Shown one piece after another: positions 2,545 to 14,167 of a DNA stretch of 64,000 nt. The notes below the pieces were generated by a model. That model was not told the DNA's origin, did not search any database, and saw only the letters and a list, made by a program, of their open reading frames with translations. Each line of letters starts with the position of its first letter. Within the stretch, counting starts at the first letter, position 1. The DNA comes from Vulcanimicrobiota bacterium (lineage in GTDB: Bacteria > Vulcanimicrobiota > Vulcanimicrobiia > Vulcanimicrobiales > Vulcanimicrobiaceae). The DNA lies in assembly GCA_003164495.1 (NCBI GenBank), contig PLTN01000162.1:1-64000 (forward strand). The letters run 5' to 3'. The position numbers and the translations under genes were made by a program.

Positions 2545-3882
2545 CTAGGATTCCTGCGGCGGTGAGGATGAGATTATTAGGCGATTCGCCGACATGTTGG
2601 TCATCGAAGCGTTGACGCCAATGACCGCGACGTTGCTTGAATCAATAAAGGCCTTGCCAACCAGGTCTGCCGCCTTCTGGTGAAGTGAAATTGGTCGCAG
2701 CTGGCTCAAGTCCGTCCCCGAGACACCGGACGCGATGTAATCCGGGATCCGAATCACCTCATCGAGATAAGTGCCTTTGCGGCCATCGTTGCGCGGGCCG
2801 GGAATTCCTAGAGCAATCTTTGCCGCCGGGACCTTTCGTCGCTGCGAGAAGGCGTGCGCATTGTCGGCAAACGTCGGGTAAGCAATCGCTCCGTACGATG
2901 TCGTCATATCGTCACGATCGGGCATGAACGCGATAAGTTCGGCTCGGCCCTCAAGCTGCAGCAGCGTTGCGACGATACCGCCGAAAGCGGCAAGCAAAAT
3001 CATATCTTGAAACAAATTGCAGTTGAAGCTGTTCGCGTTCGCGAGCTGACGCAGTCGACGCGTCCGCTCAATTGTGCCTTGCTGGTCGGCCGCATCTTTC
3101 ATGTTTTCATACATGCTGATGGTCGTATCAATCGCCTGGCGCGCGGTCGCGACATCAGGGATGAACTGTCGATCGCGATTGACTACAAACGCAAAATGAA
3201 AGCGCCGTGGTGACCGCAAGAAAGCGATCATCTGGGGCGTAATGTTACGAACGCGTTTGGCATCCTTGGGAAAGACCGCTGCGATTTCGGTCTGCATCGT
3301 CACGAAGTCTCGATCGGAGGGAAATACCGTGAATGCGAACACATCGTTTGGGCGCGTCTCGTCATGAAGGCAGAAGTCCGCCGAAATCAACCACTTCGCT
3401 TCTGCGCCGCGTACTACGAACTCCGTAAAGTTCTGCCGCATCGTCGGAGTACCGGTGTTAAGCGCCGCTAAGACGTGCTCAACGAGATTGTCGACGAAGC
3501 CACCCGGTGGCGCGTCATCGGCCCAGCGCGGAACATAGATGTCCCGCAGTGGGCCGGCAAGCACCGTCGCGCGGAGATGCGCTTCTCGAACGTCACGCGG
3601 AAAAATGGCAAAAAATGGGAAGATTGCACGGAGCGGCCGTGCAACCGGATCGCCGCTGATGAGCACGGACTCAACATACTGCGGTGACGCCCGCAGGATC
3701 GAGTCCCAGATTGACCGTCGCTCCGCATCGCCCGCCGAAAGTCGATCGGCAGCTGCGCAGATGTCTGACCAATATGCGCCAAGTTGCCCCTGGACGGCAT
3801 ACGCAAGACGCATGAGATACGCATCGATTGCAGCTGCATTCCAAACGGCCTTCGGCACGGCACCTTCGACTGAGGCCGACAC
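2545..3882 (-). CDS. Hypothetical protein, 445 aa, no recognised domain
   Basis: Long ORF with coding-like composition, divergent from the SEFIR module. Confidence 0.75.
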   Translation of the reverse strand: MSASVEGAVPKAVWNAAAIDAYLMRLAYAVQGQLGAYWSDICAAADRLSAGDAERRSIWDSILRASPQYVESVLISGDPVARPLRAIFPFFAIFPRDVREAHLRATVLAGPLRDIYVPRWADDAPPGGFVDNLVEHVLAALNTGTPTMRQNFTEFVVRGAEAKWLISADFCLHDETRPNDVFAFTVFPSDRDFVTMQTEIAAVFPKDAKRVRNITPQMIAFLRSPRRFHFAFVVNRDRQFIPDVATARQAIDTTISMYENMKDAADQQGTIERTRRLRQLANANSFNCNLFQDMILLAAFGGIVATLLQLEGRAELIAFMPDRDDMTTSYGAIAYPTFADNAHAFSQRRKVPAAKIALGIPGPRNDGRKGTYLDEVIRIPDYIASGVSGTDLSQLRPISLHQKAADLVGKAFIDSSNVAVIGVNASMTNMSANRLIISSSPPQES

Positions 3883-4243: not shown

Positions 4244-4810
4244 ATGGTTGTTAGATTGACCGATGTAGTTTCGGATTTCAATGATGCTGTGGCGCGTGGT
4301 GCGCCGGTAAGCCTTCACAACGCGAAAGGCGAGCATGAGGATGTCATCCCGTTTGTTCCCCAGAGTCTGCTCGGGAACATCAAGGGTCAATACTATGCTG
4401 TCTCCGATCCTGGCCAGCTCGTGGTTCTCGATGTTGCGCGCTGGACTCGTTTGAGCAAAATACCGCGCGTTGACAATGTTCGTCTTATAGACCCGACCGG
4501 CGTGTCACAGACCGTCGCGCCGCGTAACCTGCACGGATGGTCCCTTGAGTTTGATGTTCGAGGCATAGCAAAGGGCGACGTGTACCGGGTCGAGGTGTTT
4601 CCGGATCCGACGGGCCCGTCATTTACGATGGTGGAGCAGATACCAGCTGGGACTCATACATCCGTTGTTCAGCACTTCAAGGTTCCATTGACCCGAGAGG
4701 CGCGCGCGGAGGTGTCGATAGCGATCTACCGAGTCGACGCGGCTACCGCGAGGCGAGATGCGAACGAAAGCCGCCCGCAGGAATGGGGAGAGTACTTCGA
4801 GGTGCGTTGA
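4244..4810 (+). CDS. Hypothetical beta-rich protein upstream of SEFIR protein
   Basis: In-frame ATG at 4244 ('MVVRLTDVVSDFNDAV...') is more plausible than 4109; 69-bp gap to the next co-oriented gene. Confidence 0.65.
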   Translation: MVVRLTDVVSDFNDAVARGAPVSLHNAKGEHEDVIPFVPQSLLGNIKGQYYAVSDPGQLVVLDVARWTRLSKIPRVDNVRLIDPTGVSQTVAPRNLHGWSLEFDVRGIAKGDVYRVEVFPDPTGPSFTMVEQIPAGTHTSVVQHFKVPLTREARAEVSIAIYRVDAATARRDANESRPQEWGEYFEVR

Positions 4811-4879
4811 TTACGCGTATGCAGACCCGCACGTGCGCCCGAGGAATCCGAATCGTCTTCAGCGGAGCGACACGATAGC

Positions 4880-6157
4880 ATGGAAACTGGCGGGGTCGGA
4901 TTGCCCTCGGTCATCAGTTACGCTCGTGGTTCGCACGACGCGCAGGTTATCGGCCTGGCAGAGCGCTTGATTATGGAGGGAGTTCCCTGCGACGTAGACC
5001 TCTTCGATCCGCGCCCGCGCGGCGGTTGGTCTCGATGGATGACCGAGAAGATGAGCGGCACGGAGATCGTTCTCGTCGTCTGCTCGGAGGCATATTACCG
5101 AAGGTTTCATCTTGAGGAGCCCCTTGGCGTTGGCCAAGGCGCAACGTACGAAAGCGGAATGCTAAACCGGCGCGTGGTGGCAGCGCAAGGTTCTGAACAC
5201 GGGGTTATCCCGATTCTCTTCGATGCGGCTGACGTTCGGTGGATTCCCGAGTTCTTGCGCGACGAGACGCACTTCGTGCTGCCTGCCCAATACGACGATC
5301 TCTATCGCGTGCTGACGAACCAGCCCGCGTACGTGCGCCCTCCATTGGGTGCCGTCCGTCCACTGCCGCCGCTTGCAGGTTCTGGTAGCCGTCCTCCACC
5401 GATTGCGCCGGCAACGGAAGCAACAGCCTCAGTCGCCCCGAGCGCGCCGCAACTCCCGCTGGCTGTGTTCAAGCCACGTGAGGGCCAATTGATTTTCGCT
5501 CGCTATGCCGATTTGGTTCGTGAGCGCGGTTCGATCAACGTCACGCTTGTCGCTGGTGATGACGATGAGGTGGCGAGCGTTTCGCGGTTGAGGAATCATT
5601 CCCAGACGCTGCCGATGGGTTGGGGACTCGAGGCCGCCTTCGTGCGCGTCCGGAGTTACAGAGAAGTGACCCGAGAGGGCAGGCGCAGCGTCGAACTCGT
5701 CTTGGTGGAAGAAGATCGTCGGGGAAGCATGACGTCGGACATGAGCGTCAACGGCATCACCGCGGATCAGATCGCCACTCGTCGAGCGCGCCGAATTCTT
5801 CTTGATGAGCGCCCGGTCGAATCTGAACTGGGACAATTTTCAACCCAGCGGCTCAACGAGGAAACGCTTGAGGGGTTCGTCTCCGGTCGGAGCGGCGGAG
5901 GGGACGGGTCGTTTATCGTTACCAGGTCGCCGCTACCACCGCTCGCATCCTTCGATGACCCGGATCTCGTTGAAGTCGGCAGACTTCTTTGCGCCTTGAT
6001 GCTCATTACGACGAACTGCGTGGAGCAGATTTCTCGGCTCGTCTTGCGTCGGACAGCGGCCGGTATCGAGGTTGAATTTGTAGGTCACCGCGCGCGCGTA
6101 TACTCGAATCAGGAACCGTTTAGGATGACAATCTCGGGAGTCTGCCCGATATCGTAG
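4880..6157 (+). CDS. SEFIR (TIR-like) domain protein with uncharacterised C-terminal region
   Basis: N-terminus 'SVISYARGSHDAQVIGLAERLIMEGVPCDVDLFDPRPRGGWSRWMTEKMSGTEIVLVVCSEAYYRRF' matches the SEFIR pattern. Confidence 0.8.
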   Translation: METGGVGLPSVISYARGSHDAQVIGLAERLIMEGVPCDVDLFDPRPRGGWSRWMTEKMSGTEIVLVVCSEAYYRRFHLEEPLGVGQGATYESGMLNRRVVAAQGSEHGVIPILFDAADVRWIPEFLRDETHFVLPAQYDDLYRVLTNQPAYVRPPLGAVRPLPPLAGSGSRPPPIAPATEATASVAPSAPQLPLAVFKPREGQLIFARYADLVRERGSINVTLVAGDDDEVASVSRLRNHSQTLPMGWGLEAAFVRVRSYREVTREGRRSVELVLVEEDRRGSMTSDMSVNGITADQIATRRARRILLDERPVESELGQFSTQRLNEETLEGFVSGRSGGGDGSFIVTRSPLPPLASFDDPDLVEVGRLLCALMLITTNCVEQISRLVLRRTAAGIEVEFVGHRARVYSNQEPFRMTISGVCPIS

Positions 6158-6367: not shown

Positions 6368-9300
6368 CTACACCCCGCCTATGCTACCTGAGATCTGATC
6401 CATGTACACGCCATCGATGCCGTACGACTTCGCGATTGCTCGAAGTACCGCCGCAGTCCGCGGTGCGGTGATGGCATATCGCTTCGCCAAATCCTCAAAC
6501 CGACGCTTTTCTCCACGCTCCAGCTCACCGCCGTCGAGTGGACCGCGGGTCGTCACACCCCGTCCGTTCCGGACGCCGAGCTCAACGCCACGTTCGATCT
6601 CGCGGCTCTTGGCCCGCTCGATCGTGTCTCGAACGGCCTTCGGGGGCCACTCTCCATTCCCGTCCGGCTTCGCAGCCGCCAAAATCGTGCCGATCTGTTG
6701 ATCGACAATCGCTGACCTCTTTGCTACGGCGGCTCCAGCGCGTACGGCGTTCACCCAAGCCATGAGCGCGGCTCCGTCGATCTGACCGTCTTCGTCTGAT
6801 CCGGGCACGCGCTTCCAGCTGTCGAGCAGCATGTAGCTCTGCGTCGCTAACGCGGCTCGGCGTTCCGGATCTTCATCAGTAGCAGTAGCCGTACCGTCGT
6901 CGTCACCGCGATAGATTGACGAGACGACGGTCAGGAAGAAATCGGGGCTTTCTGCAAGACCGGTTTCGAGCAGCTTTGGTTCGCGCCCCGAATTCTGCAA
7001 GAAACCGTAGTACGTCCACTCAAGGCCAAAGAGCGCCACGCGATCGATACTAGGGTCGGCTTCAAGGCGATCGAGAATCAATCCGCAATAATGCCCGAGC
7101 ATCGATGAATCGTTGCCGCCACGCACGGAGCCGATCTGCGAGCTGGCTGCTTCCATTGCTCTCAGCTGCAACGAAGACGGAAAGTCTTTTGGCCCCGTCT
7201 GACCGATCAAAGCGACGGCTTCGACGGGCCGATCCACACGCAGCAACTCTTTGACTGCGACAACCCGATCCGCCGGGCTCGCGTGCATCATGAACATCCA
7301 GGGGACGCTCTTCCAGTAAGCGTCGTCCACGGTTTCGCCTGCCTCGCTCGCAACCCGGATCGTGACCGTATCGAACGGCATCCCGCGAAGTATGACCGCA
7401 ATCGCCTCTGCTGACCAACCTGCAGTCACCGCATCTCGAACAAGACCGGCGGCCCACTCGCTTCCGAGTACCTCGACCGCGCCAAGAACCAGCCCGCGGC
7501 CAAACTCGCGCAGCTTGTAATCTTCCGAGCGGCAAGCGCGATCGACAATTGCAGGGCGAACGGGATCGTCCAAACCGGTCTTCATCAATGCGGTTCCGAG
7601 CGCAACTGGATTCTCGACAGCCGAAGCCATCTCGAAAATCAGCTCAATGTCGGCAGCTTCGATCAGCTCGCGCGCGACGCGAAGTCGATTCTCATCGTTG
7701 AGCGCGAGCATTTTGTACAGATCATGACCTGCGTTGGTAACCGGCGGCTTCGGATAATTCGCGAAGACCCACCCGTCACGTTCGACGAGACTTGTCGGTG
7801 CGAGCAGGTCAAAGGCTTCCTGTAAGAGCCCAAGCACCGGTTCCGGCATCGCCCACCAAGTCGACGACGATTCGCGATGACGGTTGAGCACACCACGGAC
7901 GAATTCACGCGCGTCGACGCGTGTACGTTCATCGACGATCTCTCGCGCGACATCGAGAAACGCCCGAGCCATCCGCTCTTGCTGGCCATGCGTGAGTCCT
8001 ACCACGTTCTTGAAAAAATCGCTCCAACGCTCGACGTCGGACCCGACATCTGCGAGAAGCCGCTCGAACACCTCGTTGGCGCTCCTCTGCAGAAGCTTTT
8101 GCGTCGGAAATTCTTGCGCGTCTTCTTCTACGCGGCGCCAAATCAGCTGAGAGGAGTAAGACGAGTGATCGCCGCCGCCTTTAGGCAGGATTGAGAGCAT
8201 GAGATCCCAAGCGGCACGATTCGCATCACTCCGCATCATGTCAAGACAAGTGAGCCGATCTTCGAGCGATACATATGTCTGCGGTGTCCACGGCAAGAAA
8301 ATCTGGCGCAGGGTCGCTGTCGGGCGATTACCCTGGCGATTGTCTCGAGTGTCGCGTTCGGCCAGACGCGCGAGCACGGCGACCGCTCGAGCGAAGTACG
8401 CCGGCGCCCACGCTAGACGCTCGAGCGCCGAAGTCAAGTCGGAGATGTAGTCTCGCGAGAACACACCCCCGTCGCTCTTGAGCAAGACCGAAACCGGCGC
8501 GTCATGCGCGTCAAGTGATGCGTCAAGGGCGTCGAGGAATTGATCCGGAGCGGCTTCTGCAAGCGCGGGAAATTCGGCGCGCAGTGACCACCAGAGCGCC
8601 GCGTCGGCGTGGTCAAGGAGCCCGCGGACAAATCCCTCGACGCGAGAATCGATGTGAAGGTTCGGCGGCGCTTCTTCCGGATGAACCGCCATGACATCAA
8701 GCGCTTCGGCGAGGCCGGCACGCACTTCATGCGAGTGACCCGGTTTTCGTTCGCCGTATGCGATCATCCGCGAGCGGTCGACATCGTCGAATCGCGGATC
8801 GAATTCGCGCAGCGCGACTTCGGCCCCGTCGAAGAACGCGTCAAGGTCGGACTTTGTCAGAGCCGGCGCGAGGAAGAACCACGCGTCAAGTCGAGACACC
8901 CAGCGTAGCTTCGTTCCGGACCGGATGACCGGCGCATCGATGCCCGCCGTAAGCGGTTCGAGCTCGCGGGCCACATGGTCGTACGGCTGGGTCGCGAGGC
9001 GCTCGATGAGAGCGCGATCACCCTCGTACGATTCGTCCCAAGCACCAGCTAGCAGCAATGCGCTCAGTACGCCCTTCGATGTCGTTCCGACCCAACTTGG
9101 TGGAGGCATCGTCTGCGTTGCGAGAATGCGACGAAGTACCGAAACACTTCCCCCGGCGCGTTTCGCGAGAGAACGCGCCTCACCGCGACTTCGGCTGATT
9201 CGCAGGAGGTCGACGCCGACGCCGCTCTCACGTACACCGGCCATGAGCGCTTCTTCGAGTTCGTAGCGATGCACCGGACCGAGCGTTACGTCGACGCCGG

Positions 9301-10441
9301 ATCGATCACGGTTCCGTGCAATCGCGTAGACGTAATGCCCCTTGGCCGCGATACTCCTCGCGAAGCCGGGATCGTCGCTGTTCATGACGATGATCATCGG
9401 ACGCATAGCGCGACTGAGTTCGCGAGCGGCATCGTCCGTCCGCGCAACGATTGTTCGCAGCCGATGCGATTCACGGACTTCCGCCGGCAGCATAGAGAGC
9501 GCGCTCCAAAGGAACGCGCTGGCCTCTTCGTTCGTCGACGAGTGAACGGTCAGCACCGATGCTGGGGCCTTCAACCACGCGTGCACGCATGTCGCCTCGT
9601 CGTCGCGCCCGGCAAGCAGCACCGCCTCGGGGAGCGGTGGTACCGTCGCGAGCGAGAAACGCTCCCACGCTTCCTTTAGCGACTCGATGCCGGTGCGTGG
9701 AACTTTCCCGATCCGTTCCGCAAGCCAGAGCTGCACGCCCGGATGCTCGTCGAGCCAGTGAACTAAATCGTCGACATCGAGCGCCATCACGTCCGCGAAG
9801 ACCCGCCGCGCGCGCTGCCGCGCGATCCAGACGTCCTTCCCCGGCCAATTCCGCATTACAACGAAGACGAACGACATCGCTTGACGCGTCTCGGGATCGA
9901 GCGCTTCTTCTCGCTTCTTGAAGTCACCGTCGGCCTTCTTGTCGATGCCGCTGTTGACCGTCAGCTCCCAGCCGGACTTCCCGATCGGCACGCGATTCGC
10001 TACGGCGCGCGGGGAATCGCACGTCCCGTCCCATCCGCCGGCCTGCGTGCTCTCTCCAGCTGGGAAATGTCTCATGACGTCCGGACCGGCCCCAGCAAGG
10101 ACGAGCCGGTCGATAAGCTCCGGAAGACCGCTGCGCCCGTCAAGGCGGTTGGCCCATTCGAGGAGATCGCCGCTGTTGATCAGCCGAAACGGCTGTCCGT
10201 CAGCCAGCGCCGGCTCCTGAGCATTCGCAGCAGCCAGACTCGCTTGCTCGCCGGTGAAGCGAACGCCACCGTTTTCGAGCGCCTTCGTGAGGGCGTCGAC
10301 GCTGTTTGCGATCGGCGTGCGAGCTCCGCGCTCGAAGTCGGCCACGGTCGAAATCGCCGTTTGGGCTTCTTCAGCGAGTCGTCGCTGCGACCACGCCAGG
10401 AGTGCGCGGCCTGCGCGGCAGGTTTCAGGAGCGAGGCTCAT
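6368..10441 (-). CDS. 1357-aa protein: N-terminal XRE-type HTH, putative PD-(D/E)XK-like domain, large C-terminal (STAND/repeat-like) region
   Basis: HTH 'RAGRALLAWSQRRLAEEAQTAISTVADFERGARTPIANSVDALTKALENGGVRF'; then 'LPELIDRLVLAGAGPDVMRHFPAGESTQAGGWDG...WELTVNSGIDKKADGDFKKR...FVFVVMRNWPGKDVWI' resembling a nuclease-like domain found at the start of large bacterial proteins. Confidence 0.75.
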   Translation of the reverse strand: MSLAPETCRAGRALLAWSQRRLAEEAQTAISTVADFERGARTPIANSVDALTKALENGGVRFTGEQASLAAANAQEPALADGQPFRLINSGDLLEWANRLDGRSGLPELIDRLVLAGAGPDVMRHFPAGESTQAGGWDGTCDSPRAVANRVPIGKSGWELTVNSGIDKKADGDFKKREEALDPETRQAMSFVFVVMRNWPGKDVWIARQRARRVFADVMALDVDDLVHWLDEHPGVQLWLAERIGKVPRTGIESLKEAWERFSLATVPPLPEAVLLAGRDDEATCVHAWLKAPASVLTVHSSTNEEASAFLWSALSMLPAEVRESHRLRTIVARTDDAARELSRAMRPMIIVMNSDDPGFARSIAAKGHYVYAIARNRDRSGVDVTLGPVHRYELEEALMAGVRESGVGVDLLRISRSRGEARSLAKRAGGSVSVLRRILATQTMPPPSWVGTTSKGVLSALLLAGAWDESYEGDRALIERLATQPYDHVARELEPLTAGIDAPVIRSGTKLRWVSRLDAWFFLAPALTKSDLDAFFDGAEVALREFDPRFDDVDRSRMIAYGERKPGHSHEVRAGLAEALDVMAVHPEEAPPNLHIDSRVEGFVRGLLDHADAALWWSLRAEFPALAEAAPDQFLDALDASLDAHDAPVSVLLKSDGGVFSRDYISDLTSALERLAWAPAYFARAVAVLARLAERDTRDNRQGNRPTATLRQIFLPWTPQTYVSLEDRLTCLDMMRSDANRAAWDLMLSILPKGGGDHSSYSSQLIWRRVEEDAQEFPTQKLLQRSANEVFERLLADVGSDVERWSDFFKNVVGLTHGQQERMARAFLDVAREIVDERTRVDAREFVRGVLNRHRESSSTWWAMPEPVLGLLQEAFDLLAPTSLVERDGWVFANYPKPPVTNAGHDLYKMLALNDENRLRVARELIEAADIELIFEMASAVENPVALGTALMKTGLDDPVRPAIVDRACRSEDYKLREFGRGLVLGAVEVLGSEWAAGLVRDAVTAGWSAEAIAVILRGMPFDTVTIRVASEAGETVDDAYWKSVPWMFMMHASPADRVVAVKELLRVDRPVEAVALIGQTGPKDFPSSLQLRAMEAASSQIGSVRGGNDSSMLGHYCGLILDRLEADPSIDRVALFGLEWTYYGFLQNSGREPKLLETGLAESPDFFLTVVSSIYRGDDDGTATATDEDPERRAALATQSYMLLDSWKRVPGSDEDGQIDGAALMAWVNAVRAGAAVAKRSAIVDQQIGTILAAAKPDGNGEWPPKAVRDTIERAKSREIERGVELGVRNGRGVTTRGPLDGGELERGEKRRFEDLAKRYAITAPRTAAVLRAIAKSYGIDGVYMDQISGSIGGV

Positions 10442-12696: not shown

Positions 12697-13293
12697 TCAC
12701 GCAGATATCGTTGTCGGCTGCGCGTGGCAGTCGCAGCTACAGTCGCCGGAACAGTCAGCGTGACGGCCGGCTGAGCAGGCTGCTCGCATGACTTTCATGG
12801 CGAGGTTCTCGGAAAATGGCGGTAGCGTCTCTGCCAGGCCAACGTAAGCGCGCCCTTTTAGCTGCATGACGAACGATGTCAGGGTCGCGTCGGCATTAAG
12901 ACGAACGTTGATGATGTCCTCGGCCTCTGCAATTCGCTCGGCGCCGCTCTGTAGCTCCATCGGTGAGACGACGATGCCCCCGAGGGCACCCGTATCGTGT
13001 ATGCGATAGGCGATCGCAGCGAGCGCTTCTTGTTTGAGCTTCGAGGTCGTGTAGCGGCGGCATTCGACGACGTAGAACATGCCCTCGTTGTTAGCAAGAA
13101 ACGCTACTCCGTCGAGCTCCCATGAGGTAACCGTACCGTCGACCTGTTGCTTGCCCTCAACGCGATCGAGGCCAAAGTCCGTAGCGAAGCGGTCGAGCAG
13201 CTTTTGGGCAATCTCTTCATATCGCTCGGCATTCGCCTGGCGGGTTGGTACGGGTGTCGACCGCTCGTCGGGCCCCTGCGGAAGTTGCGTCAT
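12697..13293 (-). CDS. Mrr-like restriction-endonuclease-fold protein with Cys/His-rich tail
   Basis: 'WELDGVAFLANNEGMFYVVECRRYTTSKLKQEALAAIAYRI' resembles PD-(D/E)XK core; C-terminus 'CSAGRHADCSGDCSCDCHA'. Confidence 0.6.
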   Translation of the reverse strand: MTQLPQGPDERSTPVPTRQANAERYEEIAQKLLDRFATDFGLDRVEGKQQVDGTVTSWELDGVAFLANNEGMFYVVECRRYTTSKLKQEALAAIAYRIHDTGALGGIVVSPMELQSGAERIAEAEDIINVRLNADATLTSFVMQLKGRAYVGLAETLPPFSENLAMKVMRAACSAGRHADCSGDCSCDCHAQPTTISA

Positions 13294-13620: not shown

Positions 13621-13900
13621 CTCAGACCCGCTACAGCGGCGTTTTTCATTGATACGGTGACGGGCGTCCGGAATCCGCGCTCCTGCCGTCCGCGCTGCCC
13701 GCAACCCGTTCGAGCACTGAGCGCTCTGACGGAGTCCGCGTCTGCCAGCGTTGAGTCGATCACGCTGAGCGAGTTCAGGACCCGTGAAATCGACCGACGC
13801 GGCTACCGAATGGCTACCGCGGTGGAGGGCACCCCAAAAACTACGCCAGCGGGACCACAATTTCGAGCCGCCTAAACGGCCCGAACGAAAGGAGGTCCCC

Positions 13901-14167
13901 ATGGCCCGCAAACGCCAGTCCCCCGAGTCGATCGCGAAGGTCCTACGGCAAGCCGAATCCGGCATTCCGATCGCCGAACTCGCCCGCAAAACCGGCGTCC
14001 ACGAGAACACGATCCATCTCTGGAAAAAGAAATACGGCGCGCTCGGTACGCCTGAGATTCGCGAGATCAACGAATTGCGTGACGAGAATACGCGACTCAA
14101 GCGGCTCGTCGCTGATCTGACGCTCGACAAAGTCATGCTCCAAGACGTGCTCTCAAAAAAGCTCTGA
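13901..14167 (+). CDS. IS3-family transposase OrfA
   Basis: RBS aaggagg then ATG at 13901; 'MARKRQSPESIAKVLRQAESGIPIAELARKTGVHENTIHLWKKKYGAL...ENTRLKRLVADLTLDKVMLQDVLSKKL'. Confidence 0.85.
   Translation: MARKRQSPESIAKVLRQAESGIPIAELARKTGVHENTIHLWKKKYGALGTPEIREINELRDENTRLKRLVADLTLDKVMLQDVLSKKL

Follow-up and report, generated by a model that had tools for sequence, protein, structure and literature searches.

A portable C-terminal domain shared by SEFIR, TIR, DUF4062 and caspase proteins: a candidate phage-sensing module

Our analysis centers on a 425-residue protein encoded at 4880..6157 on the forward strand of a 64-kb stretch of DNA (hereafter the window; it opens a 73.6-kb contig from an incomplete genome), in which an N-terminal SEFIR domain is followed by a C-terminal domain lying outside the known families. 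Sequence comparisons point to this C-terminal domain being an interchangeable phage-sensing or assembly module that has been attached to at least four kinds of effectors, and it is this domain, rather than the gene pair put forward in the initial annotation, that constitutes the unit of interest. The deployment of SEFIR and TIR domains in defense is already known, as is the depletion of NAD by SEFIR proteins. We found no description of the C-terminal domain family, or of its use with four kinds of effectors, in the family libraries or the open-access literature; an earlier description in the subscription literature is possible. Only a handful of sensing domains are known through which bacterial TIR-type NADases recognize phages. 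A domain found on SEFIR, TIR, DUF4062 and caspase effectors is a concrete and testable sensor candidate, and also a handle for finding further defense proteins whose effector half has gone unrecognized.

Architecture of the SEFIR protein

The protein is a single ORF, and its relatives in Eremiobacterota span all or nearly all of its length at 43-50% identity. Its N-terminal half (residues ~11-161; 4910..5362, forward strand) was read as a SEFIR/TIR-like domain in the initial annotation, and profile searches bear this out: the Pfam SEFIR (3.1e-7, residues 12-144) and TIR_2 (1.5e-7, residues 12-117) models both exceed their curated cut-offs, and the PADLOC bSEFIR profile (PDLC03957) matches at 3.7e-26. 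SEFIR systems have been characterized as NAD+-depleting abortive defenses (PMC12774641, PMC12322248), and the domain is accordingly predicted to be a NADase effector. Glu91 (codon at 5150..5152, forward strand) is a glutamate in 9/9 aligned SEFIR sequences, four of which have unrelated C-termini; by analogy with the TIR NADases it is likely to be the catalytic residue. A Pro/Ala-rich linker (residues ~162-194; 5363..5461, forward strand) follows, and the pLDDT falls below 50 over residues 145-189 in an AF2 model built on a 14-row alignment, in which the SEFIR part as a whole is poorly modeled.

The C-terminal domain occupies residues ~195-425 (5462..6154, forward strand) and is supported by alignments A5 and A6. 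The initial annotation could match it to no known sensor, and it lies outside the known families in the collections searched: Pfam, NCBIfam and PADLOC gave zero family matches, PDB sequences none (best E 2), and PHROGs no convincing one (best 0.016). In the above-mentioned AF2 model the domain mostly has a pLDDT of 70-90, with weaker stretches at 281-290 and 311-340, and displays a strand-rich alpha/beta fold with the element order b-b-b-a-b-b-b-a-a-a-b-b-b. Foldseek searches with the model of the whole SEFIR protein gave no confident match (best 4.4e-3 in the PDB and 5.6e-5 among viral structures, with low TM-scores). The weak matches include many phage tail-tube, baseplate and distal tail proteins, as well as split-barrel enzymes and PilZ. 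Because the whole model served as the query and the output does not give the aligned part, the tail-tube or baseplate likeness of this model may be no more than that of barrels in general, whether by coincidence of barrel folds or by mimicry; we treat it as a lead only. Naming the C-terminal fold as tail-tube, baseplate or split-barrel was rejected in view of the low TM-scores and the lack of sequence support from PHROGs.

Phyletic spread and homology of the C-terminal domain

We recovered the C-terminal domain in 23 distinct proteins from nine phyla, namely the window protein, 14 genome-derived relatives and eight plasmid relatives. The Eremiobacterota account for four of these, including the window protein, and the other three likewise carry the domain behind a SEFIR domain; in one of them an apparent frameshift, which might reflect either an assembly error or decay, interrupts the SEFIR domain (L012:7235-8574, from the record that also holds L015). 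The domain is present in 4/149 genomes of the phylum, a patchy presence that is an accessory distribution. Among 84,980 species genomes scanned, 13 loci had the domain: two are the Eremiobacterota ones, and the others come from Poribacteria, Latescibacterota, Gemmatimonadota and a proteobacterial MAG. The plasmid members belong to Hymenobacter, Spirosoma, Deinococcus, Nostoc, Calothrix and Exiguobacterium (i.e., Bacteroidota, Cyanobacteriota, Deinococcota and Bacillota). Scans of viral contigs with both the C-terminal domain and the full SEFIR protein gave no matches, and phages scanned for the domain contained no members.

Identity of the domain to the window protein across loci is 20-40% (alignment A6), and the conserved positions are mostly hydrophobic or structural. 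The domain bears the motif RARRILLDE (residues 302-310; 5783..5809, forward strand), which is invariant in the 15 genome-derived members and relaxed in those from plasmids; it was one of the two patterns used in the 84,980-genome scan, and its invariance there is partly a product of selection, whereas the plasmid searches were independent of it. Run on 6198 reading frames, an HMM built from the eight plasmid members alone retrieved the window protein at 2.2e-20, with the best non-member at 1e-3, and one built without the caspase-bearing member recovered that member at 1.1e-25. These reciprocal results argue that the homology of the domain is not an artifact of a permissive profile.

Effector variety and exchange

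The domains preceding the C-terminal domain fall into several kinds: SEFIR in the window protein and at loci L010, L014, L015 and L018; TIR in the proteins from Poribacteria, Latescibacterota, L019, Hymenobacter, Spirosoma and Deinococcus and in Calothrix 4101; DUF4062, reported in 2026 to be a TIR-like NADase domain (PMC13174449), in two Nostoc proteins and Calothrix 4105 (L035, L036 and L039, with matches slightly below the Pfam cut-off in the former two and slightly above it in the last); and a caspase (Peptidase_C14) in Exiguobacterium. The N-terminus of L014 passes the Pfam cut-off for TIR_2 only, but of the PADLOC profiles it matches bSEFIR best, at 1.8e-34; those of L019 and L034 match ThsB profiles. 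The clearest case of exchange involves two plasmid proteins, the DUF4062 protein of Nostoc edaphicum and the TIR protein Calothrix 4101. Their C-terminal domains are 74% identical, their N-terminal domains do not align, and the BLAST match begins at residues 131/135, past the effector. In the tree of the C-terminal domain the Calothrix TIR protein falls among the DUF4062 proteins with moderate support. Judged by these comparisons, the pair is a recent, direct effector swap on one C-terminal domain. On other plasmids SEFIR domains are joined to unrelated C-termini, which the HMM of the C-terminal domain does not pick up.

Genomic neighborhoods

The neighborhoods of many relatives are rich in defense genes. 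They include Cas8b and Cas7 of a CRISPR-Cas I-B system (L016), type IIG restriction-modification and ThsB-like TIR genes (L023 and L026, the latter also with AbiTii), HNH nucleases (L018 and L020), type I restriction genes beside the Spirosoma member and ThsA-macro proteins beside those of Nostoc and Calothrix. On the cyanobacterial plasmids, the DUF4062 genes bearing the C-terminal domain (L035:3974-4846, L036:6674-7531, L039:6601-7458) lie beside genes whose products combine a hydrophobic N-terminus with a ThsA macro domain, which suggests that these are Thoeris-like systems with a DUF4062 enzyme. We also observed a recurrent small predicted membrane protein with a motif like RNSFLxKSW (L022:6195-6680, L023:9576-10007, L026:9647-10060, L037:6609-7109). 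At two loci from Poribacteria it immediately follows a ThsB-like TIR gene; by eye, it also adjoins the Deinococcus member. It may be the effector of a Thoeris-like pair of its own.

In the window, the SEFIR gene belongs to an accessory stretch that also holds large genes of unknown function, and PADLOC detected no complete curated defense system adjoining it. The flanking accessory genes include one for a patatin-like phospholipase, which is like CBASS effectors (468-1463), and those for a 445-residue orphan (2545-3882), a 1357-residue protein that begins with an HTH and weakly matches PD-Lambda-4_A (6368-10441), and an Mrr-type nuclease (12697-13293). Near the edge of this stretch a short ORF (13784-14167) looks, by eye, like OrfA of an IS3-type transposase.

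The upstream ORF

The ORF listing confirms the two co-oriented forward-strand ORFs of the initial annotation (4244-4810 and 4880-6157, separated by 69 bp). The first encodes an orphan protein of 188 residues, with no family match in Pfam or PADLOC. Its GC by codon position (0.67/0.43/0.61) looks coding and its codon score (0.055) is on par with that of the SEFIR gene (0.036); since one antisense frame scores alike (0.061), we regard it as a probable rather than a proven gene. The label of beta-rich previously given to its product matches a single-sequence AF2 model with a mean pLDDT of 50, too low to carry weight. Searches of plasmids, phages, viral contigs and the phylum's 149 genomes recovered no convincing relatives of this ORF: weak genome matches (E 0.02-0.7) and a single viral-contig match of 13 residues (L005) were taken as chance. 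A promoter and terminator scan of the locus gave no signal clearly exceeding shuffled expectation.

The partner is absent beside all relatives of the SEFIR protein, both the 14 genome-derived and the eight plasmid ones. The genes upstream of them are unrelated to it and mostly vary by locus, with the exception of two Poribacteria loci (L017 and L025) that have a common upstream gene (70% identical). On account of this lack of relatives, the absence near all family members and the variation upstream, we treat the pairing as incidental or lineage-specific. Of the original reading, the SEFIR-type immune effector stands, with a C-terminus outside known families and with relatives in defense contexts; the two-gene module was rejected, as the two genes do not co-occur at any of the other loci.

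Proposed mechanism and alternative readings

The best explanation, to which we assign a probability of about 60%, is that the window gene encodes a stand-alone abortive-infection protein. The C-terminal domain of ~230 residues would be its control part, binding a component produced by the phage (an oligomeric structural one being the likeliest) or assembling upon it; this would cluster the SEFIR domains, the killing part, which would then cleave and deplete NAD+. There are precedents for this in SpbK (PMC12847820) and Swarozyc (PMC13174449), TIR-type NADases in which an auxiliary domain binds a dodecameric phage portal and the NADase domains thereby cluster. The layout of effector, linker and constant domain, together with the swappable effector, suggests by analogy that the same logic might operate here. 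We infer the phage-sensor role of the C-terminal domain, the nature of its ligand and the dispensability of the upstream ORF; the domain could equally well serve in assembly or autoinhibition. A wider and more tentative proposal, with slightly less than an even chance of being right, is that the domain represents a new phage-sensing class spread over nine phyla, which licenses SEFIR, TIR and DUF4062 NADases and a caspase protease, thereby coupling one type of trigger to several death programs.

Among the competing readings, the one we consider the least improbable, at about one chance in five in our estimation, is that the C-terminal domain is a mere scaffold for oligomerization or autoinhibition, with the trigger being sensed elsewhere, for instance in the linker or via metabolites of NAD+. 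The mainly hydrophobic or structural nature of the conserved positions and the weak resemblance in fold to phage proteins that form rings and tubes would suit such a scaffold; against it stands the strong divergence between loci, which is expected of a sensor under pressure, though age alone would fit it too. It is rather improbable that the protein is the signaling half of a Thoeris-like system, its N-terminal TIR-type domain making an ADP-ribose signal while another protein executes the response. The three DUF4062 genes adjoining ThsA macro-domain genes in Nostoc and Calothrix, the ThsB profile matches of L019 and L034 and the small membrane protein next to the Deinococcus member all speak for this, but a ThsA-macro relative is absent near the window gene and near its Eremiobacterota relatives, the caspase fusion is ill-suited to a signal-maker, and published accounts have SEFIR systems depleting NAD+ (PMC12774641, PMC12322248). 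The ThsA-macro neighbors leave room for a signaling version in those cyanobacteria.

A requirement for the 188-residue protein, be it as a co-sensor, an inhibitor or a second effector, appears marginally less probable still. The co-orientation and close spacing of the two genes, their similar and weakly adapted codon usage, and the occurrence of a co-oriented upstream gene at some other loci are what one would expect of such a module; yet relatives of the partner are missing beside the other family members and from every collection searched, and the upstream genes elsewhere are unrelated, with some relatives, such as that at L011, lacking one altogether. The least probable account is that of a regulatory or metabolic protein without a link to phage defense: TIR-family domains do exist outside defense, but the defense-gene neighbors of many relatives, the patchy accessory distribution and the carriage on plasmids make it improbable.

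Comparison with known systems

The single-gene bSEFIR system (PDLC03957) resembles the window protein in its N-terminal SEFIR domain, conserved glutamate, single-protein organization and similar length. It differs in that the PADLOC profile covers residues 12-161 only, the match ending at profile position 195 of 412, and that the C-terminal domain taken alone is matchless in 15 members; a plain bSEFIR member was rejected as a full description, the C-terminal part having no match. On the L014 relative the stretch matched by the bSEFIR profile extends to residue 267, so the C-terminal domain may be distantly akin to the bSEFIR reference C-terminus. Thoeris, comprising a ThsB TIR and a ThsA macro protein, is approached by those relatives that match ThsB profiles or adjoin ThsA, whereas at the window SEFIR replaces the ThsB-type TIR, no PADLOC match to Thoeris was found among the genes tested and a ThsA-macro relative is absent from the whole stretch. 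SpbK (PMC12847820) works in a like manner, with a NADase domain and a dedicated sensing domain in a single protein, but its sensor is N-terminal, and its C-terminal effector is a TIR rather than a SEFIR domain. Swarozyc (PMC13174449) likewise couples a TIR-superfamily effector to a C-terminal auxiliary domain, and its DUF4062 is shared by some members of the present family. Unlike it, the window protein has a SEFIR/TIR_2 N-terminus, DUF4062 being confined to the above three cyanobacterial loci, and whereas the auxiliary domain of KpSwz is of the HTH/winged type, the present C-terminal domain is modeled as a strand-rich alpha/beta fold that is also found with SEFIR, TIR and caspase domains.
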